Source: a virus
Strand: one strand, 5' to 3'
IMG/VR virus record: IMGVR_UViG_3300031885_000074
Location: 1-32,437 of that record
DNA: 32,437 nt
The notes under the pieces are model-generated. The model ran no database searches. It was given only the letters and a program-made list of their open reading frames with translations, and was not told the DNA's origin. Numbering within the stretch: the stretch's first letter is position 1; each line of letters begins with the position of its first letter. Shown one piece after another: positions 6,760 to 32,337 of the stretch. The position numbers and the translations under genes were made by a program.

Positions 6760-7808
6760 CACTTACCTCCGACCGCGGCCGGGGCGACGCCCTTCAGCCG
6801 CAAAACTTTGACCTCGAATATCGTCAGGCACGAGAGGGCGTCCGCGAGGGCGCGCTTGTCCTGGGCCTCGGCCACCTTCTCCTCCTGGAGCGGGCCGGGG
6901 TCGGCGACCTTCGAGTACATGGTCTGGGCGTCCTCGCCCCCCACCCGGCTGTCCATGCTCACGGGCGAGGCCGCGCGGAGGAGGCTCTGCATACTGTCCT
7001 TCGTGACGTACTTGGGCTCGGGGGTCTCGGGCTTCTCCTTCTTGGCCTCCTCCCAGATCTCCTTGCGCTGCTTGTTCATCTCCTCGACGACGCAGGGCAG
7101 GTCCGACATGTTCTTCCGGTACGAGGTGATGTTCGCCCGGTACAGCTCCCGCCGGTCCGAGGGGTAGAAGTGCAGGGTGGTGTCGGAGTACATCTCGACC
7201 ATGTTGCCGGACATGCGCCCTATGGCGACGCTGCGGAACACGGTCGTGTAGGGCGGGACGAACTTGTCGACCGCGGAGATCAGGCCCTCGCTCGCCGTCT
7301 GGACCAGGTCCATGTACTCCGTCGTGGACGTGTGCGGGACCTTCCCCCAAAAGAGCTTCGCGCGGTTGATGGCCAGCGGGAGGTTACGCTCGATGATCCC
7401 GCCGCGGTGCGCCCGGATCTCGTCGGCCATCTTCCTGACCTTCGCGGCCCTCTTCCCCCTGTACCTGGAGACGGCGAAGGCGACGAACAGGTAGTTCGCC
7501 CGGAACCCGTGGAGCCTGGAGGGGGCCTTGGCCTTGAGGGCCGGCGCGATCTTGGAGGAGAACACGCCCTGGCGCTCCCGGAAGTACGGGCGGGCCGAGA
7601 GGATGTTCTTGCGCTGCACGGTTATGTGGTCGACGAACTCCCGGTAGACGGCGCGGCCCTCCGGGTGGCTCGTGAGGAACCTTCGGAAGCGGGTCTCCAT
7701 CCTGACCAGCGTGTCGATCTGCTGCTTCTGCGTCTTGTCGGTGGCCCCGCCGGCGATGACCGACTTGAGGTCCTCCGCGAACCGCCTGAAGTGTTCGCCG
7801 CTGCTCAC
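6759..7808 (-). CDS. Phage sigma-70-like transcription factor lacking most of region 4
   Basis: The product (349 residues) should bind RNA polymerase core and direct it to phage promoters. Residues 138-205 match sigma region 2: 'IIERNLPLAINRAKLF', then 'MDLVQTASEGLISAVDKF' and 'FRSVAIGRMSGNMVE', which corresponds to the core-binding and -10 recognition helices. Residues 270-290 ('LLRAASPVSMDSRVG') resemble the end of region 3. Region 4 starts with 'ALSCLTIFEVKVLRLKG', but the protein stops about 10 residues later, so the -35 helix-turn-helix is missing. This recalls T4 gp55, which has no region 4. The first 130 residues are basic and helical with no clear match. The start is a GTG at 7808 sharing GTGA with the helicase stop. 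The family is well supported; its promoter set is unknown. Confidence 0.85.
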   Translation of the reverse strand: MSSGEHFRRFAEDLKSVIAGGATDKTQKQQIDTLVRMETRFRRFLTSHPEGRAVYREFVDHITVQRKNILSARPYFRERQGVFSSKIAPALKAKAPSRLHGFRANYLFVAFAVSRYRGKRAAKVRKMADEIRAHRGGIIERNLPLAINRAKLFWGKVPHTSTTEYMDLVQTASEGLISAVDKFVPPYTTVFRSVAIGRMSGNMVEMYSDTTLHFYPSDRRELYRANITSYRKNMSDLPCVVEEMNKQRKEIWEEAKKEKPETPEPKYVTKDSMQSLLRAASPVSMDSRVGGEDAQTMYSKVADPGPLQEEKVAEAQDKRALADALSCLTIFEVKVLRLKGVAPAAVGGK

Positions 7809-9337
7809 CGCTGCACCCCCACGTACTCCAGCTTGTCCAGTATCCCCCTGTAGGTGGACGCCCGCTCCATGGCGTGGCGGTGGAGCGTGTCGATGTTCGT
7901 GACGTCGAAGTCCACGATGGTGCAGTGCTCCTTCCTGCCCGGGACCCGGCGCGTGCCCCGGCCGACGGCCTGGCGGAACTTTACCTCGGACTTCCCGCCC
8001 TGGATCAGGATCAGGTTGTGCGCCGCCTGTATGTCGGTGCCGGTGCAGATTGCGGAGGTCCCCACCAAAACCAATATCTTGCCCGCGTTGAACCGCTCGA
8101 CCTGGTCGACGACGTCGGAGGTGTGGAACCTCGCCGGCAGGATGTTGCGGAGGTCGCGGACCTCGTACCCCTTCTCGGCCCGGGCCCGGTCCTTGGCGGA
8201 CATGTAGGGGATTCCACCGTGGGCAAACTCGAACTCGACCCGGAGGTACGGCTCCAGGGCGACGATCTGCGGAAGCTCGTCCACGAGGATGAGGGTCTGC
8301 TGGTTCAGCTGGAGCGCCGCGCGGGTGGCTATCGCTCCGGCGAGGGCGTTCACGGACGGGTTGTAGAGCAGGTGGCGGCGGGTCAGGTCGTTCGGGTCGT
8401 CCCCGTAGGAGGGGGCCGTGGAGGTGACGCGGAACACCTTGAACGAGAGGTCGGCGAGGAAGCCGGCCTTGATCCCGTCCTCGACGGTCATCCGGTAGAC
8501 CATGGGGCCGGTGATCCCGCGGAGCAGCAACTCGGAGCCGTCGTTCCTGGTCTGTGTCGCCGAGAAGAAGAACCGGTAGGGCACGCCCACGAAGAGGCCC
8601 GTGCAGACCTCCTTGATGGTCTCGGCCGGAACCAGGTGCGACTCGTCGGCGATGAAGACCTGCGCGGCGGAGAGTTCGCCCCAGACGTCGGAGCCCGGGA
8701 CAACCTTCGTGAGGGCCGCGGAGATCGCGACCGTTATGTGCTTGATCTGCTTCTTCCCGTCGCCGTACATCCCCACCCTCGCCTTGCCGAAGCAGTCCGT
8801 GAGGAGCGTGAGGAGCTGGCTTGCGATGCTGACCGAGGGCGCGATCACCACGGTCCTCAGACCGAGGCGCTGGACGAGGGAGGCTATGATCAGGGACTTG
8901 CCGAGGCCGGTCCCGACCTCGACCCCCGCGTGCTTGCCGCCAAGCAAAGTCTCCAGGGCCTCGGCCTGGTACGGGCGCAGCTGGGGCGGGACCTTCTTCC
9001 AGGGGAGGTGCCCGGTTTCGGGGTACTCGACCGTGTCCTCGAAGTCGGCGCCGAAGGTCTTGGCGACCTCGTCCCCAAGGCCGGCGTAGGTGAAGAAGCC
9101 CTGGTCGTCCCTGAACAGGAGGCAGGGGTCGCGGCGGACCGTGAGGGAGGCGGTCTCCCCGTCGTACCTCTCCTCGCCGTACCTCTCGCGCTTCCAGGAG
9201 GCCTTCTTGTGCTCCCGCAGGAGCCGCTCGACCTTCTTGTCCCTGTACGTCAAAAACTTGGCGCAGGCGGGGTTCCCGCCGATCTCGTCGGGGATCCTTG
9301 CCCAGCAGGGGGAAGTCTTGCGGACGGGGCCGACCAT
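7805..9337 (-). CDS. SF2 DNA helicase, UvsW/ERCC3-like
   Basis: This ATP-driven helicase or translocase probably remodels branched DNA during replication and recombination. Its 510 residues hold the SF2 motifs in order. A Q-type 'LRPYQAEAL' is at 120-128, Walker A 'GTGLGKS' at 142-148, motif Ia 'VIAPSVSIASQ' near 164-174, 'DESH' at 231-234, 'SAT' at 259-261, 'TGTDI' at 432-436 and motif VI 'QAVGRGTRR' at 456-464. The N-terminal 115 residues form a small accessory domain, as in T4 UvsW. The DESH box and overall size favour the UvsW/ERCC3 branch over DEAD-box RNA helicases. The start ATG at 9337 follows the upstream TAG directly. It overlaps the sigma-like gene by 4 bases at its end. Confidence 0.92.
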   Translation of the reverse strand: MVGPVRKTSPCWARIPDEIGGNPACAKFLTYRDKKVERLLREHKKASWKRERYGEERYDGETASLTVRRDPCLLFRDDQGFFTYAGLGDEVAKTFGADFEDTVEYPETGHLPWKKVPPQLRPYQAEALETLLGGKHAGVEVGTGLGKSLIIASLVQRLGLRTVVIAPSVSIASQLLTLLTDCFGKARVGMYGDGKKQIKHITVAISAALTKVVPGSDVWGELSAAQVFIADESHLVPAETIKEVCTGLFVGVPYRFFFSATQTRNDGSELLLRGITGPMVYRMTVEDGIKAGFLADLSFKVFRVTSTAPSYGDDPNDLTRRHLLYNPSVNALAGAIATRAALQLNQQTLILVDELPQIVALEPYLRVEFEFAHGGIPYMSAKDRARAEKGYEVRDLRNILPARFHTSDVVDQVERFNAGKILVLVGTSAICTGTDIQAAHNLILIQGGKSEVKFRQAVGRGTRRVPGRKEHCTIVDFDVTNIDTLHRHAMERASTYRGILDKLEYVGVQR

Positions 9338-16110: not shown

Positions 16111-16799
16111 TGCCGGGAAGAGTCCTATCACTGGACGTCAGCACGAACACCGGGTACGCGGTGTTCGACGGCGGCGCGGACGTGCTTGTGGCCTACGGAT
16201 TCATGGCCATGATGAAGAGGCCGTCGCAGTATCCGCTCCCCTATCCGCTGAACTACGCCGTCGCGGCGACGGACTACGCCCGCGCCCTGGTGACGCTGGT
16301 GGAGCAGTTCGAGCCGGTGGCAATCGTGGTCGAGGAGACCAACCCGGGGCACGAGGTCCTCAGCCAGAGGACGCTGGAGTGGATACACATGGCCCTCAAC
16401 CTCAAGCTGGGTATGGCCACGAAGGTCTGCTACGTCAGAACCGGGGACTGGCGCCGGGCCGTCGGGCTCCAGCTGAGCAAGGTCCAGGCGAAGGCCAACC
16501 TGAAGAAGAGCCTAGAAAAAGCCAAGAAGGAGGCGTCGGCCATACGCTTCCTGATCAAGGCCGCGGGGACCAGCAAGGTGAACGCGATGCACGTAGCCAA
16601 GCTGAAGAAAGACCTGAAGGCACTGCAACTCTTCAGGACCACGCGGAAGCACCTCGCGGTCAACATGGTAAACGAACTGTACAAGCTGGACCTAAAAATC
16701 GCCGACAACGACACGGCCGACGCCATACTCTTGGGTCGGGCCTTCTACCTCGGCGCCACTGTCTGCGACGGCAAGATGCCGTCGAAAAAACAAAGCTGA
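16110..16799 (+). CDS. RuvC-like Holliday junction resolvase (RNase H fold)
   Basis: The 229-residue product should cut four-way or branched DNA, clearing recombination intermediates before packaging. The N-terminal strand 'VLSLDVSTNTGYAVFD' holds the first catalytic Asp (Asp9). 'PVAIVVEETNPG' supplies the central Glu (75/76), and 'IADNDTADAILLG' (197-209) gives the C-terminal acidic residues (Asp201, Asp204), as in RuvC. The size is larger than E. coli RuvC (173), with a Lys-rich helical insert at 120-180 that may be a DNA-binding extension. The GTG start overlaps the upstream TAG. The assignment to RNase H-fold resolvases is firm; junction specificity is inferred from the family. Confidence 0.85.
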   Translation: MPGRVLSLDVSTNTGYAVFDGGADVLVAYGFMAMMKRPSQYPLPYPLNYAVAATDYARALVTLVEQFEPVAIVVEETNPGHEVLSQRTLEWIHMALNLKLGMATKVCYVRTGDWRRAVGLQLSKVQAKANLKKSLEKAKKEASAIRFLIKAAGTSKVNAMHVAKLKKDLKALQLFRTTRKHLAVNMVNELYKLDLKIADNDTADAILLGRAFYLGATVCDGKMPSKKQS

Positions 16800-16816
16800 A
16801 CAGAGAGGGCAACACG

Positions 16817-18784
16817 ATGTTTCGGAACGAGGCGGCAGAGTTTGTCTACATCCGCACCTACGCGCGGTGGTTCGACGACAAGGGGCGCAGGGAGGTCGGT
16901 TGGGACGAGTCGGCCCAGAGGCTCCTCGACTTCTACTGGAAGATCTGCGGCAACAAGCTCCCGAAGAAGGTGAAGAAGCGGATCGAGCACCGGCTCCTGA
17001 AGATGGACGCCATGCCGTCGATGCGGGCCCTCTGGTCCGCCGGCCCCGCGCTCAGGGAGAACTCCATCCTCGGGTACAACTGCTCCTACCTCCCCGTCGC
17101 GGACCTGTTCTCGTTCGCCGAGCTGCTCTACATCCTCATGTGCGGCACCGGCGTCGGGTTCAGCGTCGAGCGCCGGTTCTCCGAGAAGCTGCCCGCGGTC
17201 GAGAAGCAGTCGGGCCTCGGCTCCGGCGTGCACGTCGTCAGCGACACGAAGGAGGGCTGGGCCACCTCGCTCTACGAGGGCCTGAAGGCCTGGTTCGGGG
17301 GCAGGGACATCGAGTTCGACTACACCAAGATCCGACCCCGCGGCGCCCGGCTGAAGATGATGGGCGGGCGGGCCAGCGGCCCCGAGCCGCTGCGCCGGCT
17401 GCACAGGTACGTCAAGTCCGCCCTCCTGGCGGCCCAGGGGCGGAAGCTGAACCCCGTCGAGTGCCACGACCTGTGCTGCATGATCGCCGAGGTCGTCGTC
17501 GTGGGCGGTGTCCGCCGCAGCAGCCTGATCTCCTTCAGCGACCTGGACGACAACGCCATGCGGACGGCCAAGGACCCGGGGATGCCGGTCTACCGGCAAA
17601 TGAGCAACAACAGCGCGGCCTACGAGGGCAAGCCCGACATGCTCACCTTCATGGCCGAGTGGCTCAACCTCGCCAAGTCCGGCTCGGGGGAGCGCGGCAT
17701 CTTCAACGCCGGCGCGGCCCTGAACCAGGCCCCGCGGCGCGGCCTGAAAATCGCCGACAGCTTCCGAACCAACCCGTGCGGCGAGATCATCCTGAAGCCC
17801 TTCGAGTTCTGCAACCTCACCGAGGTCGTGGTCCGCGCCTCCGACAGCTTCGACGACCTGATCGAGAAGGTCGAGGCGGCGACGTGGATGGGGGCCATCC
17901 AGTCCACCCTGACCAACTTCCCGTTCATCCGGCCGGAGTGGAGGCAGAACTGCGAGAAGGAGCGGCTCATGGGCGTCTCCCTCACGGGGCAGCTGGACAA
18001 CCCGGGCATCCTGACCGCGGAGAAGCTGGAGATCCTCCGCAACTACGCGATCAAGACTGCGAAGAAGGCCTGTGCCACCCTGAACATAAACCTGAGCGTG
18101 GCGATTACCTGCGTCAAGCCGAGCGGGACGGTTAGCCAGGTCGTGGACTGCGCCAGTGGGTGCCACCCGCGGTGGTCGGAGCACTACATCCGGCGCTACC
18201 GGATCAGCTCGACCGACCCCCTGTTCAAGATGATGAAGTCCCAGGGCGTCAAGTTCGCGGCCGAGGTCGGCCAGCGGCCCGAGGACTGGAAAAAGGCCGC
18301 CAAGCTCTCCGAGGAGGGCAAGCCGTTCGAGAACGTCTGTCCGCTGTACGAGCGCGGGAAGGACTGGTCCGAGGACCGGGTGCAGACGTGGGTCTGTGCC
18401 TTCCCCGTCAAGTCCCCCGTGAAGTCCATCGTCAGGAAGGACTGGGGCGCCATCCAGCAGCTTGAGTGGTACAAGCGCGTCCAGAAGAACTGGTGCGAGC
18501 ACAACGTCAGCTGCACGGTCTACGTAAAGGACAGCGAGTGGCTCAAGGTGGGCAACTGGGTCTACGAGAACTTCGACGACGTGGTCGGTGTGGCTTTCCT
18601 CCCAGACTCCGGCGGCGTGTACGAGCTTGCGCCCTACCAGTCCATCACGAAGGACGAATACGAGAAACTGAAGGCCGAGTTTCCGAAGCTCGACTACACC
18701 AAGCTGTCGAAGTTCGAGCTGGAGGACAACACGACCGGGGCCCAGACCCTCGCCTGCACGGGCACGACCTGCGAGCTGGGATAG
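16817..18784 (+). CDS. nrdJ: Class II (adenosylcobalamin-dependent) ribonucleoside-triphosphate reductase
   Basis: It reduces ribonucleotides to deoxyribonucleotides using a B12-generated thiyl radical. The 655 residues look like the monomeric Lactobacillus leichmannii enzyme. 'YNCSY' holds Cys89 (Cys119), 'TNPCGEI' holds Cys321 and Glu323 (Cys408 and Glu410) and 'FEFCNL' holds Cys332 (Cys419). The tail ends in 'ACTGTTCELG', whose two cysteines (647, 652) have the spacing of the redox pair Cys731/Cys736. It is about 80 residues shorter than the 739-residue L. leichmannii protein. The ATG at 16817 follows GAGAGGG; the frame is open further upstream but only as a shadow of the resolvase gene. 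No separate activase or small subunit is required for this class, and oxygen is not needed. Confidence 0.95.
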   Translation: MFRNEAAEFVYIRTYARWFDDKGRREVGWDESAQRLLDFYWKICGNKLPKKVKKRIEHRLLKMDAMPSMRALWSAGPALRENSILGYNCSYLPVADLFSFAELLYILMCGTGVGFSVERRFSEKLPAVEKQSGLGSGVHVVSDTKEGWATSLYEGLKAWFGGRDIEFDYTKIRPRGARLKMMGGRASGPEPLRRLHRYVKSALLAAQGRKLNPVECHDLCCMIAEVVVVGGVRRSSLISFSDLDDNAMRTAKDPGMPVYRQMSNNSAAYEGKPDMLTFMAEWLNLAKSGSGERGIFNAGAALNQAPRRGLKIADSFRTNPCGEIILKPFEFCNLTEVVVRASDSFDDLIEKVEAATWMGAIQSTLTNFPFIRPEWRQNCEKERLMGVSLTGQLDNPGILTAEKLEILRNYAIKTAKKACATLNINLSVAITCVKPSGTVSQVVDCASGCHPRWSEHYIRRYRISSTDPLFKMMKSQGVKFAAEVGQRPEDWKKAAKLSEEGKPFENVCPLYERGKDWSEDRVQTWVCAFPVKSPVKSIVRKDWGAIQQLEWYKRVQKNWCEHNVSCTVYVKDSEWLKVGNWVYENFDDVVGVAFLPDSGGVYELAPYQSITKDEYEKLKAEFPKLDYTKLSKFELEDNTTGAQTLACTGTTCELG

Positions 18785-20362: not shown

Positions 20363-20391
20363 TTGCATTTTTCCGCGAAACCGGGCATAAT
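20363..20391 (+). promoter_or_regulatory. Sigma-70-like promoter (TTGCAT, 17 bp, CATAAT)
   Basis: The -35 is TTGCAT at 20363-20368, the spacer is exactly 17 bp and the -10 is CATAAT at 20386-20391, preceded by GG. The spacer contains CCGCG at the same position as in the promoters at 30148 and 30470. The predicted start near 20398 leaves a leader of about 33 bases with an AAAGGA site before the metallophosphoesterase ATG at 20431. Confidence 0.75.
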
Positions 20392-21835: not shown

Positions 21836-22072
21836 ATGTCGGCGGGTGAGGACGAAATTTCCCGCCTGTTGCGAGAGGACAAGGACTTCGTAGTGGCGAA
21901 GCGTTTCGAGAACAGCCTAGCCAGGGTCCTGAAGAAGTACCCGGACGGGGTGCCGGACCGGGCGGCCGCCCAGATGCTCCAGCTAACGGAGGACGAGCTG
22001 GAGATGAAGTACCAAGGAATCCTCAGAAAGCTGCGCGGCAAGATGGGCGTTGCCGACGATACAAACAGTTGA
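21836..22072 (+). CDS. Small HTH-like unknown protein (78 residues)
   Basis: Not recognised. The ATG at 21836 follows GGAG by four bases. The product is all helical and charged. 'DGVPDRAAAQMLQLTEDELEMKYQGIL' (in two helices) has the look of a helix-turn-helix, followed by a basic 'RKLRGKMG'. Its stop overlaps the polymerase ATG (TGATG), so it is co-translated with the polymerase. A DNA-binding accessory or regulatory role is possible. Confidence 0.7.
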   Translation: MSAGEDEISRLLREDKDFVVAKRFENSLARVLKKYPDGVPDRAAAQMLQLTEDELEMKYQGILRKLRGKMGVADDTNS

Positions 22073-25000
22073 TGAAAAACTTCGTCTGCCCGCACTGCCA
22101 TCCGCAGAGCCTTGACTCTGCATCGACCGTGCCCGTCATGGTCGAGCGCGAGGTGGAGCTGGGGACCGGATACGTAACCGCGACGGACCACGGGACCATG
22201 GCCGCGGCCCTTGAGGTCTACGGCACGGCGAGGAAGAAGGGCCTCAAGCCCATACTCGGCCTCGAAGCCTACTTCCGCGACGACGACTGCGAGATACTGA
22301 AGGCCGCCGGCATCGCCGACGCCAAGGCCTACAACAAGTACTACCACGTCACCATGCACTTTCTCGACCAGGAGGCCTACGAGACGGCCTGCCGCATCCT
22401 CTCAGACAGGTGCACCGACCGCAGCGAGGTCCACGGCGGGGAGGCCAAGGCGCTGTTCAACTGGTCGGACCTACGGGAACTCGGCTCCAAGAACGTGACC
22501 ATGGGCAGCTCGTGCCTCGTGGGCATGGTCGCCCGACACCTCATGTCGAAGCGCCCCGACCTGGCGGTGAAGTACTACCACGCCCTCAAGGCCTCCGTCA
22601 AGCCGGGCAACTTCTACGTCGAGGTCTTCCCCCACAGGTGCACGCACAACTGGGAGAACAACGTCCGCATCACCCTCGCCGGCGCCGGCGAGCAGATGAA
22701 GATGTGGCTCGGGAAGAAGATCTGCGTCAACGGGAAGGTCTACTCCGCCGAGGCCTACGCCGCCCACCTCGCCAGGGCCAAGAAAGACCCGGGCCCGCAG
22801 GTCTTGGAGTACGTCCTCGACAACAAGGTCAAGCGGGAGATCGGTCGGGAGATCGAGAAGGCCGAGAAGCTCCGGGACTTCATCCAGAACGAGTGCACGC
22901 CCCTCATGCCGGACGGCGACCTCCAGCTCCTCGCCAACAAGTTTGTCCTGGGGATGGCCCAGCGCGAGGGCGACCCGGTGCTCATCTCGGACGACGCGCA
23001 CTTCGCGCACCCGGAACAGAAGATCGTGCAGGACGCGCGGCTGGGGAACGGCTCGGAGATGTGGAAGTTCTACAACAACTACCACAGGTTGGAGACAGAG
23101 GAGGCGGTCGAGTACTTCCAAGAGAGCCTCGGGATCGACACCGAGACCGTCGAGAAGTGGGTCGAGAACAGCTACGCCTGGGCGGGCCGGTTCGACAAGT
23201 TTGAACTCAAGTTCGACGTCTCCCTCCCGCAGAAGTTCTACACCGCCACGGACGGCGAGGACACCACGACGCTCGTCCGCACCAAGAAGCTGATCGACAG
23301 GCACGGCCGCATGGACTGGAAGAACCCGGCGATGCTGGACCGGCTCAAGAGGGAGATCGAGATCCTGCACAACAACGGGAAGATCGACCTGCTGCCCTAC
23401 TTCTTCCCCCTGGAGGAGGTCTGCGCCCTCTACAGGGAGAACGGGATGCTCACGGGCCCCGGCCGCGGTTCGGCCGCCGGCCTGCTGCTGGCCTACCTGC
23501 TCGGGATCACGCACGTCGACCCCCTCAAGCACAGCCTGTCCCTGGAGCGTTTCATCACCAAGGAGCGCATCCTCCAGAACACCCTGCCCGACATCGACCA
23601 GGACCTTGAGGACCGGGAACTCCTCGTCGGCGCCGACGGGAACTCCGGCTGGCTCAGGGAGCGGTTCGGCGACCACGTCGCCCAGATCTCCACCGACTCA
23701 AGCATGAGGCTCAAGAGCAGCATCCGGGACGTGCACCGGTTCCGCGAGGGCTTCGTGAGCCAGGAGATCGAGGACCTCTGCCGCAAGCTGCCGGTCCCCC
23801 CGCAGGGCATCAGCGACCACGACTACGTCTTCGGGTACAGCGACGACGACGGGAACCAGATCGACGGCGTCTCCGAGACGAACCCGACGGTCCGCAAGTA
23901 CATCGAGTGCTACCCCGAGGAGTGGAGGATCGTCGCCCAGATGCTCGGGATCACCCGCCAGAAGTCCCGCCACGCCTGCGCCTACGTCATCGCGGACCGC
24001 CCCATCAAGGAGTTCATCCCGCTGACGAAGATCAGCGACGTCGTCGTCACCCAGTTCACGGCGAAGTGGGTCGAGATGGCCGGCGGCGTGAAGATCGACT
24101 TCCTCGTCGTCAACTCCCTGAAGGACATCCGCGTCTGCCTGGAGCTGATCCGCAGCCGGCGCGGCATCGACCTGGACCCGTGGAAGCTGCCGGAGGACCA
24201 GGTCGTCTTCAACGACATCTGCGAGGGCCAGACCGAGACCGTCTTCCAGCTCAACACCTCGGGCGCCGTCGGATACCTCAAGCTTTTCGACTACTACGCC
24301 GAGATTCCGAAGGCCGGCAGGACCCCCGTCAAGGGGATCGCGTCCATCGACGACATCGCCATCTTCACCTCCCTGGACCGCCCGGGCCCCCTGGACTTCA
24401 AGGACCCGCTCACGAAGCGGAACATGCTGCAGGAGTACGCCGCGCGCAAGCGCAAGGAGTCGCGCCCCGACGTGCCGGTCCTCGCGGCCCTGCTGCCGGA
24501 GACCCACGGCGTCATCGTCTACCAGGAGCAGCTCATGAGGGTGGCCCAGGAGATCGGCGGCATGACCCCGACCCAGGCCAACGAGTTCCGCGGGTACGTC
24601 GCCAAGAAGAAGAAGGTCGAGCTGATGCAGATGAAGGCCCTGTTCCTGGAGGGCGCCCTGAAGAAGCTGGACGGGGACACCGCCGAGCGCCTGTGGGACA
24701 TGATGGTCACGTTCGGGCAGTACGGCTTCAACGCGTCGCACGCGGTCTCCTACTCCTACATCGCCTACGCCTGTGCCTACCTGAAGCACCACTACCCGCT
24801 GGAGTGGTGGTGTTCCGTCCTCCGCAACGCCAAGAAGAACGAGGTCGCGGAGAGGTTCTGGAAGCACTGCGGCCACCTGGTCAGCCTGCCGGACATCAAC
24901 ACGAGCACGGACAACTTCTCCCTGCCGGCCGCGCCGGTGGAGGGCGAGAAGATCCTGGCCCCCATCCTCCTTCTGGACGGCATCGGCGAGGCCACCCACA

Positions 25001-25683
25001 ACGAGCTTTGCGCCAAGCGGCCGTTCGCGAACATCGAGGACTTCGTCAAGAAGACGGACCCGCGGCTGATCAACAAGGGGATCTCGTGCAAGCTGATCGC
25101 AAGCGGCGTCATGGACAGCCTGTTCCCGGAGGGCGACGGCATCCTCGACAAGCTGATGGCCTACATGATCGCGCGCGCGAAGATACGGGACGAGAAGCAG
25201 GAGCCGGTGCCCGAGCAGTTCGTGGGGCTGTCCCCGCTCAGGCGGTACGCGCTCCAGAAGAGCATCCTCGCCATCTGCGAGGGCAGCGCCACGGAGATGG
25301 TCCTGCGCGACCCCCCGAGGGGCATGTCGGTCCCCGAGAACGGGCGCGCGGAGTACAACAGGTCGGGGAAGAAGTACCCCGTCGTCCGGGGGAGCGAGTT
25401 CGAGAGGCTGGCGGAGATGGAGATCTCGGCGCCCGTGCACTGCGCGGCCGTGGGGTACGTCATCTCGGAGCGGCGGTTCGCGTACAAGAACAAGCAGGCC
25501 GAGGCCGTCGAGCTGGTCCTCGACGTGGACGGCGTGATCTTCAGCACGGTCAAGTGGCCGGACCGCGAGACGGGGGAGTTGAAAGCCCCCGAAAACATGG
25601 CGAAGTCGGTGGCCCTGGTGGCGCTCAGCAGGTACAAGACCGACCGGCCGTTCTACGTAGACGATATAGTTTTGCTTGTATAG
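22072..25683 (+). CDS. dnaE: DNA polymerase III alpha subunit (DnaE-type, C-family)
   Basis: This is the phage replicative polymerase (1,203 residues). The N-terminal PHP domain keeps its metal ligands: 'PHCHPQSLDS' at about 7-16, 'ATDHGTM', 'LGLEAYF', 'YYHVTMHF' and 'ISDDAHFAHPEQ'. The palm has 'GPGRGSAAG' near 463-471 and catalytic acids in 'LPDIDQDLED' (near 505-514), with the third Asp in 'VKIDFLVV' (near 677). The fingers and HhH-like region follow ('DGIGEATHNEL'). The final 150 residues hold a small OB-like segment. E. coli DnaE is 1,160 residues. The intact PHP site suggests a possible built-in exonuclease, since no separate DnaQ-type gene is seen here. The ATG at 22072 overlaps the upstream stop; a TTG three bases earlier is less likely. 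Confidence 0.95.
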   Translation: MKNFVCPHCHPQSLDSASTVPVMVEREVELGTGYVTATDHGTMAAALEVYGTARKKGLKPILGLEAYFRDDDCEILKAAGIADAKAYNKYYHVTMHFLDQEAYETACRILSDRCTDRSEVHGGEAKALFNWSDLRELGSKNVTMGSSCLVGMVARHLMSKRPDLAVKYYHALKASVKPGNFYVEVFPHRCTHNWENNVRITLAGAGEQMKMWLGKKICVNGKVYSAEAYAAHLARAKKDPGPQVLEYVLDNKVKREIGREIEKAEKLRDFIQNECTPLMPDGDLQLLANKFVLGMAQREGDPVLISDDAHFAHPEQKIVQDARLGNGSEMWKFYNNYHRLETEEAVEYFQESLGIDTETVEKWVENSYAWAGRFDKFELKFDVSLPQKFYTATDGEDTTTLVRTKKLIDRHGRMDWKNPAMLDRLKREIEILHNNGKIDLLPYFFPLEEVCALYRENGMLTGPGRGSAAGLLLAYLLGITHVDPLKHSLSLERFITKERILQNTLPDIDQDLEDRELLVGADGNSGWLRERFGDHVAQISTDSSMRLKSSIRDVHRFREGFVSQEIEDLCRKLPVPPQGISDHDYVFGYSDDDGNQIDGVSETNPTVRKYIECYPEEWRIVAQMLGITRQKSRHACAYVIADRPIKEFIPLTKISDVVVTQFTAKWVEMAGGVKIDFLVVNSLKDIRVCLELIRSRRGIDLDPWKLPEDQVVFNDICEGQTETVFQLNTSGAVGYLKLFDYYAEIPKAGRTPVKGIASIDDIAIFTSLDRPGPLDFKDPLTKRNMLQEYAARKRKESRPDVPVLAALLPETHGVIVYQEQLMRVAQEIGGMTPTQANEFRGYVAKKKKVELMQMKALFLEGALKKLDGDTAERLWDMMVTFGQYGFNASHAVSYSYIAYACAYLKHHYPLEWWCSVLRNAKKNEVAERFWKHCGHLVSLPDINTSTDNFSLPAAPVEGEKILAPILLLDGIGEATHNELCAKRPFANIEDFVKKTDPRLINKGISCKLIASGVMDSLFPEGDGILDKLMAYMIARAKIRDEKQEPVPEQFVGLSPLRRYALQKSILAICEGSATEMVLRDPPRGMSVPENGRAEYNRSGKKYPVVRGSEFERLAEMEISAPVHCAAVGYVISERRFAYKNKQAEAVELVLDVDGVIFSTVKWPDRETGELKAPENMAKSVALVALSRYKTDRPFYVDDIVLLV

Positions 25684-27549: not shown

Positions 27550-28077
27550 TTGGCGGAAGACAGGAAGCTCATGATGGTGCCCCGGGGTCTCTCCGGCCCC
27601 GGGATGCCCACGGCCCTGACGCTGGACGTCACCGACATCGCAATCGCGGAGTCCAAGCTGAACAGGGTCAGCAGCGCAAACCCCAACAACTGGCTCAGCC
27701 TGGCGGACTGCTACAACACCGGCTACGCCAAGTGCGTCAAGTACAACGCCCTGTTGAGGTCCGAGATGGGGGCGGCCGAACGCGAGGCCCGGATGATGAA
27801 GGCCCACATGACTACGAGCAAACTCGCCAGCTTCCTCAAGGAGTACGGCCTGCAAGACAGCAGGGACGCCCGGGAGGCACTGTACCTCGGCGACCCCAGG
27901 TACGTTGAGGCGCTCGACAAGATCGCGGCTTTGGCCGCGGCGATAGAGTTGTTCGAGGCCAAGGCGAAGGCGTTCACGAACGCCTACCAGGCCGTGAAGA
28001 AGATCGCGGACGACCGCAGCAACTCGTGGTTCAAGGGGAGTATCCCCGACGGGAACGGAGGAGAGGATGTCACCTAG
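27550..28077 (+). CDS. Helical protein between SSB and recombinase; possible UvsY-like mediator
   Basis: I do not recognise a family for certain. The 175-residue product (TTG at 27550) is helical: 'IAIAESKLNRVSSANPNNW', 'CYNTGYAKCVKYNALL', 'LASFLKEYGLQD', 'YLGDPRYVEALDKIAAL' and 'AFTNAYQAVKKIADD'. The arrangement (N-terminal 'Lys...Asn-Pro...Leu', a long helix pair, a 'LGDPRY' turn and final helices ending in basic residues) resembles T4 UvsY, which loads UvsX on SSB-coated DNA. Position between SSB and UvsX genes supports this, but no diagnostic motif exists. It overlaps the recombinase gene by 11 bases, so the two are probably co-translated. Confidence 0.7.
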   Translation: MAEDRKLMMVPRGLSGPGMPTALTLDVTDIAIAESKLNRVSSANPNNWLSLADCYNTGYAKCVKYNALLRSEMGAAEREARMMKAHMTTSKLASFLKEYGLQDSRDAREALYLGDPRYVEALDKIAALAAAIELFEAKAKAFTNAYQAVKKIADDRSNSWFKGSIPDGNGGEDVT

Positions 28078-29164
28078 AGACTGGTTCAAGGAACTCACCA
28101 AGCTGGAGGGGGCTGTGGACCTCACGAAGAACGTGTACAACACGGTCGTGCAGTCGCCGAGCCCGTCCTTCAACTTCATCTTCGGCCAGGGCTGGGGCAT
28201 CCCGTTCGGGTACACGGCCTGCCTCTACGGCCCGCCCAAGTGCGGGAAGTCGTTCCTCCTCAACGCGATCATCGGGCAGCTCCACAAGGACGACCCCGAG
28301 GCCATCGCCGTCAAGTTCAACACGGAGTTCCGCGAGAAGGGGCAGTTCAGCAACATCTGGGGCATCGACACCGAGGGGAAGCGTTACATCTCCTACGAGG
28401 TGAACAACCCGACCCTGATCTTCGACCGGATCGAGGGGCCCATCGCGGAGATGTGCCAGCAGGGCGCGCCCATCAAGCTGATCGGCATCGACTCGGTCCA
28501 GGGCATCCAGGGCCGCATGACCATGAACACGGATTCAATCGCGGCGATTCGACCCGGCGACCACGCCTTCACGGTCCAGGAGGGCCTCAAGCGCATCCGG
28601 CCCATCCTCGACAAGTACGGCATCGCCCTGATCCTTACGGCGCACGTCCGCGAAAACCTCCAGATGGGCGGGAACAAGCCCGGGATGAAGACCACCAAGA
28701 TGGCCGGCTCCTGGGGCCTCAAGCACAGCGCCGAGTACTGGGTCTACATCGACAAGGTCGGCTCCGAGGACGGGCGCGAGAGCGGCCTCGGCGAAAAGTT
28801 CGTCGACTCGGAAATGAAGGACCTGCGCGACAACGCGGACAAGACCGCGCACAAGATCTACTTCCGCATGCAGGAGAACAGCGTCGGCCCCGCGGGGCGA
28901 ACCGGCGTGATGACCATCGACTACAAGCAGGGGATCATCAACACCTACGAGGAGATCGCAATGCTGGGCCTCCACCGGAACGTGGTGGTTCACCCGCCGT
29001 CGAAGGCCGGCACCGGCGTCGACGCCTCGCGCTACGCCTACGGCACCGACGTGTGGCACGGCAAGACCAACTTCCTCATGGCGGTCCGGGACAGCAGGGA
29101 ACTGCAGGAGAAGATCCTGCAGGAGCTTCGAGCCCTCGACACCCCGGCGGCCAAGAAAGACTAG
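28067..29164 (+). CDS. RecA/UvsX-like strand-exchange recombinase
   Basis: The 365-residue product forms filaments on single-stranded DNA and drives strand exchange. Walker A is 'GPPKCGKS' at 55-62. The catalytic Glu is likely in 'KFNTEFRE' or 'GIDTEGK', and Walker B is 'KLIGIDSVQ' near 137-145. The L1/L2 region follows ('QMGGNKPGMKTTKMAG'). 'GIALILTAHVREN' is the strand before L2, as in UvsX/RecA. The C-terminus is a helical tail. The ATG at 28067 is preceded by GGAGGAGAGG inside the upstream gene. Length and motif spacing fit UvsX (about 390) better than bacterial RecA. Confidence 0.92.
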   Translation: MSPRDWFKELTKLEGAVDLTKNVYNTVVQSPSPSFNFIFGQGWGIPFGYTACLYGPPKCGKSFLLNAIIGQLHKDDPEAIAVKFNTEFREKGQFSNIWGIDTEGKRYISYEVNNPTLIFDRIEGPIAEMCQQGAPIKLIGIDSVQGIQGRMTMNTDSIAAIRPGDHAFTVQEGLKRIRPILDKYGIALILTAHVRENLQMGGNKPGMKTTKMAGSWGLKHSAEYWVYIDKVGSEDGRESGLGEKFVDSEMKDLRDNADKTAHKIYFRMQENSVGPAGRTGVMTIDYKQGIINTYEEIAMLGLHRNVVVHPPSKAGTGVDASRYAYGTDVWHGKTNFLMAVRDSRELQEKILQELRALDTPAAKKD

Positions 29165-29171
29165 GCCCCCC

Positions 29172-30134
29172 GTGGGCGACAAGAGGGCCCCGGTTCCGGG
29201 GTCAATCGAAAAGATCCTGAGGGACGCGGGCGTCCAGTTCAAGGCGCGGTCCGTTTCGCTCGTCCTCGACTGCCCCAAGTGCTCGAAAAGGTCCAAGCTC
29301 TACATCCGAAGGTCCGACGGGCGCTTCGTGTGCTGGTACTGCGACGCGAACGGGGGGTTCTCGGGCAAGCCGGAGTACGCCCTGACGGAGTTGACCGGCC
29401 GACCCCTCTCCGAGCTTCGGGCCGAACTCTACGGGGAGGACCTCCCCAAGAACCAAAAGTACCTGGACGTCGAACTCGGGAGGAAGACGGTCGCGGAGAT
29501 CGAGGGCCCCGTCCCCGACATCCGGCTGCCGGCGAACTTCCACTTCACCCACGAGCCGCAGGCCGCCGAGGGGCTGGCCTACCTGGTGTCACGCGGGGTG
29601 TCGCCCGAGGTCGCGGAGGAGTACCTGCTCATGTACTGCCCCACCATGCGGAGGGTCGTGTTCCCCGTCTTCTCGGAGGACCAGAGGCTCGTGGGCTACC
29701 AGGCCCGGACCATAGACCCCGGGGTGGAACCGAAGATCCTGACGAGCACACCGTTCCCCCGGAACCGAACCCTCATGTTCTTGAATAGATTGCGAAATTC
29801 CGAGCACGCCGTCCTGTTCGAGGGCCCCTTCGACGCCGTGAAGGGCCACCTCTGCGGGGGCAACGTCGCGGCCATGGGGAAGAAGGTCGGCGACGGCCAG
29901 ATCGAGCTGATAAAGTCCTTTGGAATCAAAAGGTTGTACCTCTTCCTCGACACCGACGCCCTGAACGACGTCTCCGGGGTCATCGACCGGGCCGGCGAGA
30001 TGGAGTGCTGGGTCTGCCGGGTGCCCGAGGGCAAGAAGGACGCCGGCGAGTGCACCCCCGAGGAGGTCCTCGCGCAGTTCCGGCTGGCGACCCGGGCCAC
30101 GCGCCGGAACCTCTTCATCTACCTGAAAAGATAG
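29172..30134 (+). CDS. DnaG-like primase (zinc finger plus TOPRIM)
   Basis: It makes RNA primers for lagging-strand synthesis. The 320 residues have an N-terminal zinc ribbon with Cys34, Cys37, Cys54 and Cys57 ('CPKC', 'CWYC'). A linker with 'LVSRGVSPEVAEEYLL', a conserved element before TOPRIM, follows. The TOPRIM domain has 'VLFEGPFDAVKG' (catalytic Glu217) and 'LYLFLDTDA' (Asp260, Asp262). It is shorter than DnaG (about 580) and has no helicase domain, so a separate replicative helicase must lie elsewhere. The start is a GTG at 29172 with a weak ribosome site. It is the last gene before the promoter at 30148. Confidence 0.92.
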   Translation: MGDKRAPVPGSIEKILRDAGVQFKARSVSLVLDCPKCSKRSKLYIRRSDGRFVCWYCDANGGFSGKPEYALTELTGRPLSELRAELYGEDLPKNQKYLDVELGRKTVAEIEGPVPDIRLPANFHFTHEPQAAEGLAYLVSRGVSPEVAEEYLLMYCPTMRRVVFPVFSEDQRLVGYQARTIDPGVEPKILTSTPFPRNRTLMFLNRLRNSEHAVLFEGPFDAVKGHLCGGNVAAMGKKVGDGQIELIKSFGIKRLYLFLDTDALNDVSGVIDRAGEMECWVCRVPEGKKDAGECTPEEVLAQFRLATRATRRNLFIYLKR

Positions 30135-30147
30135 CCTAAAAAAGTAC

Positions 30148-30176
30148 TTGCTTTTTCCCGCGGGAAGGCGCATAAT
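30148..30176 (+). promoter_or_regulatory. Sigma-70-like promoter (TTGCTT, 17 bp, CATAAT), ATG 6 bases after -10
   Basis: The -35 TTGCTT (30148-30153) and -10 CATAAT (30171-30176) are separated by 17 bp with a CCGCGG core. The ATG of the next gene begins 7 bases after the end of the -10, so the predicted transcript start is at or within a base or two of the ATG (leaderless). Confidence 0.8.
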
Positions 30177-30182
30177 CAGATC

Positions 30183-30461
30183 ATGGCGAAAACTCGCTAC
30201 CTTATCAGCAGGATCGGTGCACTCTACCACAGGGGTTGTTGGAACGAGTCGAGGGGCTACCACACGGAACGGGACGGGGACACCAGGCCGCTCAAGGCCA
30301 AGCCGCGGGAATTCATCTGCGCGTGGTGCGGCGGCCGCGGCGCGAAGCGCCCCATCAAGGCCTGCCCACCCCCCAAGAGCAGACGCAGGAAGCCGGCTGC
30401 CCGCAAAAAAGCCTTTTCTTTCGATAAAGTCAGGGCCTCCCGCCGGATGAGGTTTTTTTGA
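30183..30461 (+). CDS. Small basic protein with a Cys pair, unknown (92 residues)
   Basis: Not recognised. The ATG at 30183 directly follows the promoter, with no ribosome site, consistent with a leaderless mRNA. The product is strongly basic; the middle has 'FICAWCGGRGAKRP' and a further Cys in 'KACPPP', so it may bind one zinc. The C-terminus is Arg/Lys-rich and probably disordered ('PPPKSRRRKPAARKK'), suggesting nucleic acid or ribosome binding. The last codons overlap a hairpin (30451-30467). A role as an early host-directed protein is possible but only inferred from size and promoter. Confidence 0.62.
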   Translation: MAKTRYLISRIGALYHRGCWNESRGYHTERDGDTRPLKAKPREFICAWCGGRGAKRPIKACPPPKSRRRKPAARKKAFSFDKVRASRRMRFF

Positions 30462-30469: not shown

Positions 30470-30498
30470 TTGCTTTTTGCCGCGGAAGGGCGCATAAT
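30470..30498 (+). promoter_or_regulatory. Sigma-70-like promoter (TTGCTT, 17 bp, CATAAT), ATG 6 bases after -10
   Basis: A near copy of the promoter at 30148: the -35 TTGCTT is at 30470-30475, the spacer is 17 bp with a CCGCGG core and the -10 CATAAT is at 30493-30498. The ATG at 30505 is again 7 bases after the -10 end, giving the same predicted leaderless arrangement. Confidence 0.8.
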
Positions 30499-30923: not shown

Positions 30924-31159
30924 GGAGAGGCTACGCGAAGCTCGGACTTTCCGGCAAGACAAACGTGACGGCCTGCGGGCCGCGATATCATTCCCTGCCA
31001 TTCCCGTCCTACCTGGAGACAAAGGTCGAACTGAAGGCCTGGGCCGCGACGATCAACGCCGGCCGCCGGGCCCGAGGGGACAAGCCATACGACTACGTCT
31101 GCTGGTTCACGGCCGGCGGGAAGAAGCTCACCAACCAACCACTGGCGGAGGTCGAATGA
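30920..31159 (+). CDS. Small unknown protein (79 residues)
   Basis: Not recognised. The ATG at 30920 overlaps the upstream stop (ATGA) and its own stop overlaps the next gene the same way. The basic N-terminus is followed by 'RYHSLPFPSYLETKVELKAW' (split by a turn) and a C-terminal 'YDYVCWFTAGGKKL'. The Trp/Tyr-rich compact pattern suggests a small folded domain. It is part of a four-gene coupled run ending in the Vsr-like fusion. Confidence 0.62.
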   Translation: MRRGYAKLGLSGKTNVTACGPRYHSLPFPSYLETKVELKAWAATINAGRRARGDKPYDYVCWFTAGGKKLTNQPLAEVE

Positions 31160-32337
31160 GGGAGAAGATCAACATGGCGGTGATCGGCCCGTCCAAGGGC
31201 ACCAAGGCGGAGCTGGCGGTCAGGAAGTGGCTCCGGGAGGAGAACCTCGACGTCGTGGAGAACGACGCGACGCTGCCCGGGAAGCCCGACGCCGCGATAC
31301 CGTCCCTCCAGCTCGCCGTCTTCGTCGACGGCCGCTTCTGGCACGACCCGGAGTTCGTGGCCGGGCGCAAGATCAACACCGACAAGCAGTTTTGGGTCGA
31401 CAAGGCGACCGCGAACGCCGAGCGGGACCGCCAGGCCAACGCCGAGCTGGCGAAGGCGGGCTGGCGCGTGGTCCGCGTGTGGTCCGAGGACGTCCTCGGG
31501 AAGTCCACGCAGGCCGAGGCCAAGCGCAAGGTGCTCTCCGCGACGCGCATCAACTTCCACGACAACTTCGAGCTGGTCTACCTCCGGCACCGCTCCGTGC
31601 GCCGGGCGAAGGGCAAGCTCACCGACGCGAAGCTGAAGAAGTACGGGCCGCAGGTCCGCGCGATCTCGCGCGCGGCCTACAACAAGTACAGGTACGCCAT
31701 GGGCGTGCTCGGCGCGGACGAGTGTGACCTCTACAACGTCGGGCTCGTCTACCTCATGATCTTCGTGGACAAGTGGGAGGTCGGGGGCGACGAGAAGAAG
31801 AACAGGCGCACGCTCTGGCAGTTCCTCAACCAGCGGTTCGGGGAGTGGGCCATGATCGCGGCCAAGAAGAACTACAACATCCGGGGGAACATGGACACGT
31901 CGCCCCTCACCGAGGAGGAGTACATGCAGTGCGTGAGGGCCGAGGAGCCGCCCGCCGCGGACCCCGACCCGGGGCGGGAGGAGAACACGAGGCGCCTCAG
32001 GGAGACCTTCGCCCGGCTGACGGCGAGGGAGCGGAACCACCGCGTCGTCGAGGTCGCCTCCCTCCGGCACGGCGACCCGGTCGCCCGGGAGGCCGCCCGG
32101 GCCTGGTGCGCGAAGAACGGCGTGGACTGGGAGATGCTGACTTGGATGCGACTCAGGGAGCGCCCGAACATGTACGCGCACTACGTCGTCGTCCGGTACG
32201 ACCCCGCCTGGCGCGCGCGCGCCGAGGCGATGGGGATCGACACCGCGGGCTGGCCGGCGGACCACCGGCGGCACAAGAAGACGAGCGGCTGCCTGGCCCT
32301 GGCGTGCGCCCCGGAGAAGGAGAGGGAGGAGCCGTGA
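31156..32337 (+). CDS. Vsr-like endonuclease domain fused to a sigma-region-2-like helical domain
   Basis: Residues 14-125 match the very-short-patch-repair endonuclease fold: 'GTKAELAVRKWL' (Glu19), 'ATLPGKPDAAI' (Asp45), 'AVFVDGRFWHD' (His63), then 'FWVDKATANAERDRQ' and 'AGWRVVRVWSEDVL', in the standard Vsr order. In Vsr these residues bind metal and cut DNA next to a mismatch. Residues 155-245 are different: 'LKKYGPQVRAISRAAYNKY', 'DECDLYNVGLVYLMIFVDKWE' and 'LWQFLNQRFGEWAMIAAKK' resemble the helices of sigma region 2 ('DLIQEGNIGLMRAVDKF'). Residues 278-325 ('LRETFARLTARERNHRVVEV') are loosely like region 4. The tail is basic. The ATG overlaps the upstream stop. The nuclease domain is firm (about 0.85), the sigma-like part a hypothesis (about 0.5). 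Confidence 0.8.
   Translation: MREKINMAVIGPSKGTKAELAVRKWLREENLDVVENDATLPGKPDAAIPSLQLAVFVDGRFWHDPEFVAGRKINTDKQFWVDKATANAERDRQANAELAKAGWRVVRVWSEDVLGKSTQAEAKRKVLSATRINFHDNFELVYLRHRSVRRAKGKLTDAKLKKYGPQVRAISRAAYNKYRYAMGVLGADECDLYNVGLVYLMIFVDKWEVGGDEKKNRRTLWQFLNQRFGEWAMIAAKKNYNIRGNMDTSPLTEEEYMQCVRAEEPPAADPDPGREENTRRLRETFARLTARERNHRVVEVASLRHGDPVAREAARAWCAKNGVDWEMLTWMRLRERPNMYAHYVVVRYDPAWRARAEAMGIDTAGWPADHRRHKKTSGCLALACAPEKEREEP

Follow-up and report, generated by a model that had tools for sequence, protein, structure and literature searches.

A Vsr-type nuclease domain joined to a helical domain of a previously unnamed family in a virus of bacteria

We describe a 393-aa protein that consists of a Vsr nuclease domain, a helical core domain and a C-terminal region, and that is encoded on the plus strand at positions 31156–32337 of the window (by which we mean the whole analyzed stretch of 32,437 nucleotides, a linear viral contig of 32.4 kb). 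The product, which comes from a virus of bacteria, is predicted to nick DNA as an enzyme of the Vsr type, known from mismatch repair. As a rule, Vsr nickases are small and have a single domain. Neither a Vsr with such an extension nor the family to which the helical core belongs is present in the libraries searched, and no paper on a Vsr fusion or a nuclease-sigma fusion of this kind was found in the openly licensed literature.

The open reading frame is a real gene. A single open frame extends over all 393 codons, an SD-like GGAGG is located 5 nt before the ATG, and GC3 is uniform (0.98–0.99) across the Vsr domain, the core and the C-terminal region; therefore, there is no compositional seam and we treat the frame as one integrated gene. 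It stops 100 bases short of the end of the contig.

The Vsr-type nuclease domain covers residues 5–120 (31168–31515, plus strand). It is matched by the Pfam family PF03852 (E = 2.6e-12; 46.9 bits, which exceeds the cut-off of 27), by TIGR00632 (E = 2e-27 over positions 12–118 of 119; 95.9 bits, narrowly under the cut-off of 97.85), by phrog_13076 of the PHROGs collection (1.4e-24), by the PADLOC Vsr profile (1.2e-14) and by the crystal chain of E. coli Vsr, 1cw0 (E = 1.9e-14). The preliminary description had placed the Vsr motifs at Glu19, PGKPD with Asp45 and FWH with His63, and an alignment with seven phage Vsr proteins locates them exactly there, Glu19 being aligned with the usual glutamate of these proteins. 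Its Vsr half is borne out by PF03852, TIGR00632 and 1cw0, and its two-part architecture is right as well, the core at residues 131–241 being the other part. When both the phage proteins and 1cw0 are aligned, Glu19, Asp45, His63 and Asp91 are kept, and the residues that are invariant with respect to the seven phage Vsr proteins comprise P41, G42, P44, D45, F56, F61, H63, W80, K83, N87, D91, L98, G102, W103, V105 and W109.

The N-terminal 120 residues are thus assigned to the same fold family as E. coli Vsr, PF03852 and TIGR00632, with Asp91 and the GW motif also in common with 1cw0. The protein differs from E. coli Vsr in its C-terminal extension of about 270 residues, in having Asp58 at the position of His64 (the second active-site histidine of the E. 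coli enzyme), and in lacking the cysteine and histidine residues that form the E. coli zinc site. An aspartate is aligned at the position of Asp58 in several phage Vsr proteins too, and the zinc-site residues are missing also from some of them. A further difference concerns the cytosine methyltransferase, which is a common but not obligatory partner of Vsr: no cytosine-C5 methyltransferase (PF00145) was found in the 32-kb fragment. Vsr proteins without a linked methyltransferase are known (PMC12907096).

The helical core domain, residues 131–241 (31546–31878, plus strand), is common to protein WNM70287.1 of Myxococcus phage Mx1 and to 11 viral contigs, and on the evidence of these alignments it is a previously unnamed domain family. 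Its identity to WNM70287.1 is 40% over 111 aa (BLASTP, E = 5e-22). The Mx1 protein, which is 541 aa long and adjoins the primase gene, aligns with residues 131–241 only and has no Vsr domain. Related contigs were reached via their UvsX and primase neighbors and then scanned with a core-domain profile, which found matches in L003, L004, L012, L015, L017, L018, L019, L022, L025, L028 and L043. Nothing was found when viral and bacterial contigs were scanned for the whole protein or the core with two-sequence patterns, and no annotated phage homologues of the single-domain core members were found. A search for homologues with the same order of Vsr followed by core, one of the checks proposed in the preliminary description, yielded no second case among Mx1 and the 11 contigs, all of whose core-family members lack Vsr; the fusion is known from one contig only. 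The AF2 prediction for the core has a local pLDDT of about 90 over residues 150–240, with helices at 157–177, 189–206 and 213–243. In the AF2 model of the full 393-aa protein the Vsr part is poorly predicted, since Vsr is missing from the rows of the underlying alignment. A short helical segment further downstream, residues 275–322 (31978–32121, plus strand), can also be aligned with the core family.

What is attached to the core differs among the members of the family. Most of them begin with an alpha/beta domain of another kind, about 100 residues long, for which AF2 predicts the order alpha-beta-beta-beta-beta-alpha. This might be a decayed Vsr domain, but the hhalign score against Vsr is not above the null (1/121 as high), and Foldseek retrieved no Vsr. 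In L003, L004, L028 and L043 the core has a short, almost absent N-terminus and stands as a separate protein. At the other end, the core-family proteins of L017 (11004–12161, minus strand) and L018 (11017–12186, minus strand), in which no nuclease domain was recognised, carry a C-terminal module resembling the NUMOD of I-HmuI (E = 7.5e-5 and 3.9e-5, under the curated cut-off), and I-HmuI is the top PDB match of the L018 model in Foldseek. By eye, a four-cysteine motif can be discerned in the C-termini of the members from Mx1, L025 and L003, and DUF7226 weakly matches the C-terminus of the L015 member. Neither a NUMOD nor a cysteine ribbon can be recognised in the 393-aa protein. It shares with Mx1 and the rest of the family the core and the place beside primase or UvsX, whereas the others lack Vsr and the C-terminus of the Mx1 type carries the four cysteines. 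The exchange of N- and C-terminal modules across members would fit a DNA-binding scaffold with swappable ends.

The surroundings of the gene are those of phage replication and recombination. The window encodes the phage's own DNA polymerase III alpha, including the PHP domain (22069–25683, plus strand), its own ribonucleotide reductase of the B12-dependent type (16379–18784, plus strand), a UvsX/RecA-like recombinase (28067–29164, plus strand; phrog_97, E = 1.1e-21), which is 39% identical to the RecA-like protein of Mx1, and a primase (29172–30134, plus strand; phrog_47, E = 3.5e-41) homologous to that of Mx1. The window and Mx1, whose genome has been published (PMC10720576), agree in having polIII-alpha, x, SSB, x, UvsX-like recombinase and primase in this order. 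The core gene lies beside the primase gene, on the opposite strand and facing it, in nine records including Mx1; it lies just downstream of UvsX on the same strand in L004 and L043, at the contig edge in L028, and, in the window, ~1 kb past the primase with both genes on one strand. It is missing from several large related genomes and from several near relatives, and is therefore dispensable; on the UvsX tree its presence is patchy, with five changes needed.

We propose that the 393-aa protein nicks phage or host DNA while being held in place by the core and tail, in the service of repair or UvsX-dependent recombination, and we give this proposal nearly an even chance of being right. The Vsr catalytic domain precedes a helical domain specific to phages and a C-terminal tail, and these two together would act as an adaptor that tethers the nuclease to DNA or to the replication/recombination complex. 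Phage DNA that is being replicated or has been damaged would then be nicked, at T:G mismatches for instance, and the nicks would feed repair or UvsX-dependent recombination. The adaptor function of the core is one that we infer solely from its gene neighbors and the modules attached to it. The proposal is favored by the conserved active-site residues, by the conservation of the core in Mx1 and its usual location in the UvsX/primase neighborhood, by the gene order shared with Mx1, by the uniform codon composition and by the NUMOD-like C-termini in L017 and L018; against it are the single occurrence of the fusion near a contig end, the lack of PF00145 in the fragment, the lack of a NUMOD or cysteine ribbon in the 393-aa protein and the absence of the gene from several near relatives. 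A Vsr on a replication-linked phage scaffold would reveal the way in which phages direct a nickase of this sort, and it would give access to a domain family that is uncharacterised in Mx1-like phages, Mx1 itself being growable on Myxococcus xanthus.

The main rival to an adaptor-held nickase is a freestanding homing endonuclease, i.e., a nuclease like Vsr (EDxHD-related) that has a long modular region for binding DNA and whose gene would spread from one Mx1-like phage to another through cleavage at one site within the replication gene cluster. EDxHD and Vsr nucleases are linked. Phage EDxHD homing endonucleases such as I-Bth0305I are elongated multi-domain proteins, and NUMOD modules are common in phage homing endonucleases (PMC3943268). 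The 393-aa protein is similar to I-Bth0305I (structure 3r3p) in that a phage gene cluster encodes a Vsr-related nuclease together with putative additional modules for binding DNA; moreover, the Vsr profile reaches 3r3p, NUMOD-like and four-cysteine modules occur among the C-termini of the core family, and both the patchy distribution of the core gene and its opposite orientation beside the primase in nine records speak for this rival. However, the nuclease is far nearer to true Vsr (see the TIGR00632 and 1cw0 matches above) than to I-Bth0305I: a phmmer search with the nuclease domain finds Vsr chains only, and 3r3p is reached solely, and weakly, via the Vsr profile (9e-5). In addition, the core domain is not known from EDxHD enzymes, there is no recognisable nuclease in any other core-family member and no NUMOD in the 393-aa protein, the domains diverge along with the phages, as under vertical inheritance, and mobility is in this case putative. 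We consequently regard homing as rather unlikely. It is also improbable, in our estimation, that an ordinary Vsr nuclease serving repair or attack on host DNA was fused by chance to an unrelated neighbor with no joint mechanism. That there is only one example of the fusion, and that the core with a short N-terminus stands alone in four contigs, would agree with an accident of this kind, but one SD site and one frame of uniform GC3 serve both parts, and in other members the position of Vsr is taken by a different N-terminal domain, from which we conclude that an N-terminal partner is usual.

The preliminary description had taken a different view, in which what follows the nuclease is a diverged sigma region 2, with a later stretch (residues 275–322) resembling region 4, and RNA polymerase would direct the enzyme to its sites. 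We consider this view very improbable. No Pfam or PHROG match to a sigma factor was found in the C-terminal half even up to E = 10, PF04542 and PF04545 (region 4) included, and a ten-sequence core profile found no sigma among 177,635 PDB sequences, whereas in a control a profile of the real phage sigma, built from four sequences, found more than 60 sigma chains in the PDB, up to 1.8e-10. The core HMM scores sigma factors inside the decoy range, and no sigma was among the PDB matches listed by Foldseek for the AF2 core model or the L018 model, small helical domains being a weak case for that method. The comparison that speaks for the relation is profile-profile alignment by hhalign, in which the core scores 20–23 against sigma region 2 (P 0.001–0.006), in register with the G...DL helix start; windows from real phage families never scored as high (0/121) and reversed windows did so at most once (1/121). 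The positive control of this test scores 50.7. Since T4 gp55, a known sigma, scores only 13.6, a very old sigma relation would be compatible with the result, and the AF2 helix order of the core also resembles region 2. Because the region was picked for looking like sigma, we take the score as a hint only, and the in-register resemblance to region 2 as marginal. The weak similarity in helix pattern accounts for the likeness originally noted by eye. For the presumed region 4, the hhalign score of 16.4 is not above the null maximum of 17.0 obtained with real protein families, and that assignment is dropped. A late sigma of the T4 gp55 type was likewise considered and rejected (no match to phrog_234; hhalign against gp55, P = 0.5). 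Compared with sigma-70 and gp55, then, the core has the region 2 helix pattern around G...DL with marginal profile similarity, but it has no significant sequence or fold match and no region 4. Furthermore, the phage has a genuine sigma factor gene elsewhere, at 6786–7799 (minus strand), which is matched by the profile of WNM70309.1, the annotated putative sigma of Mx1 (E = 2.1e-90), and adjoins a helicase gene (7805–9334, minus strand) as in Mx1. This gene is found in all ten related records larger than 100 kb, with or without the core gene; therefore, the core gene is not the phage's sigma, and neither the sigma half of the preliminary description nor its idea of nicking directed by RNA polymerase is supported. 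A modified version, in which the core would be a highly diverged region 2 homologue turned into a non-transcriptional module for binding single-strand DNA or RNA polymerase, and in this phage would guide the Vsr nickase to transcription bubbles or to places where replication and transcription meet, also appears very doubtful. Setting the sigma likeness aside removes a striking but mistaken claim.

Several other features of these phages were observed in the course of the analysis. A promoter-like sequence, TTGCTTTTT-CCGCGG-GCATAAT, occurs in near-identical form at 30148–30176 and 30470–30498 (plus strand), just upstream of two small open reading frames with ATG at 30183 and 30505, respectively, and a weaker copy is present at 20363–20391 (plus strand). 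The repeats at 30148–30176 and 30470–30498 are not expected by chance and are possibly a phage early promoter. In two related phages, the replicative helicase genes (L016, 10994–13567; L008, 12070–14604; both plus strand) contain, by eye, an apparent intein right after Walker A. A TnpB/OrfB-like gene, likewise recognised by eye, is located inside the replication cluster of another related phage (L021, 12518–13555, plus strand).
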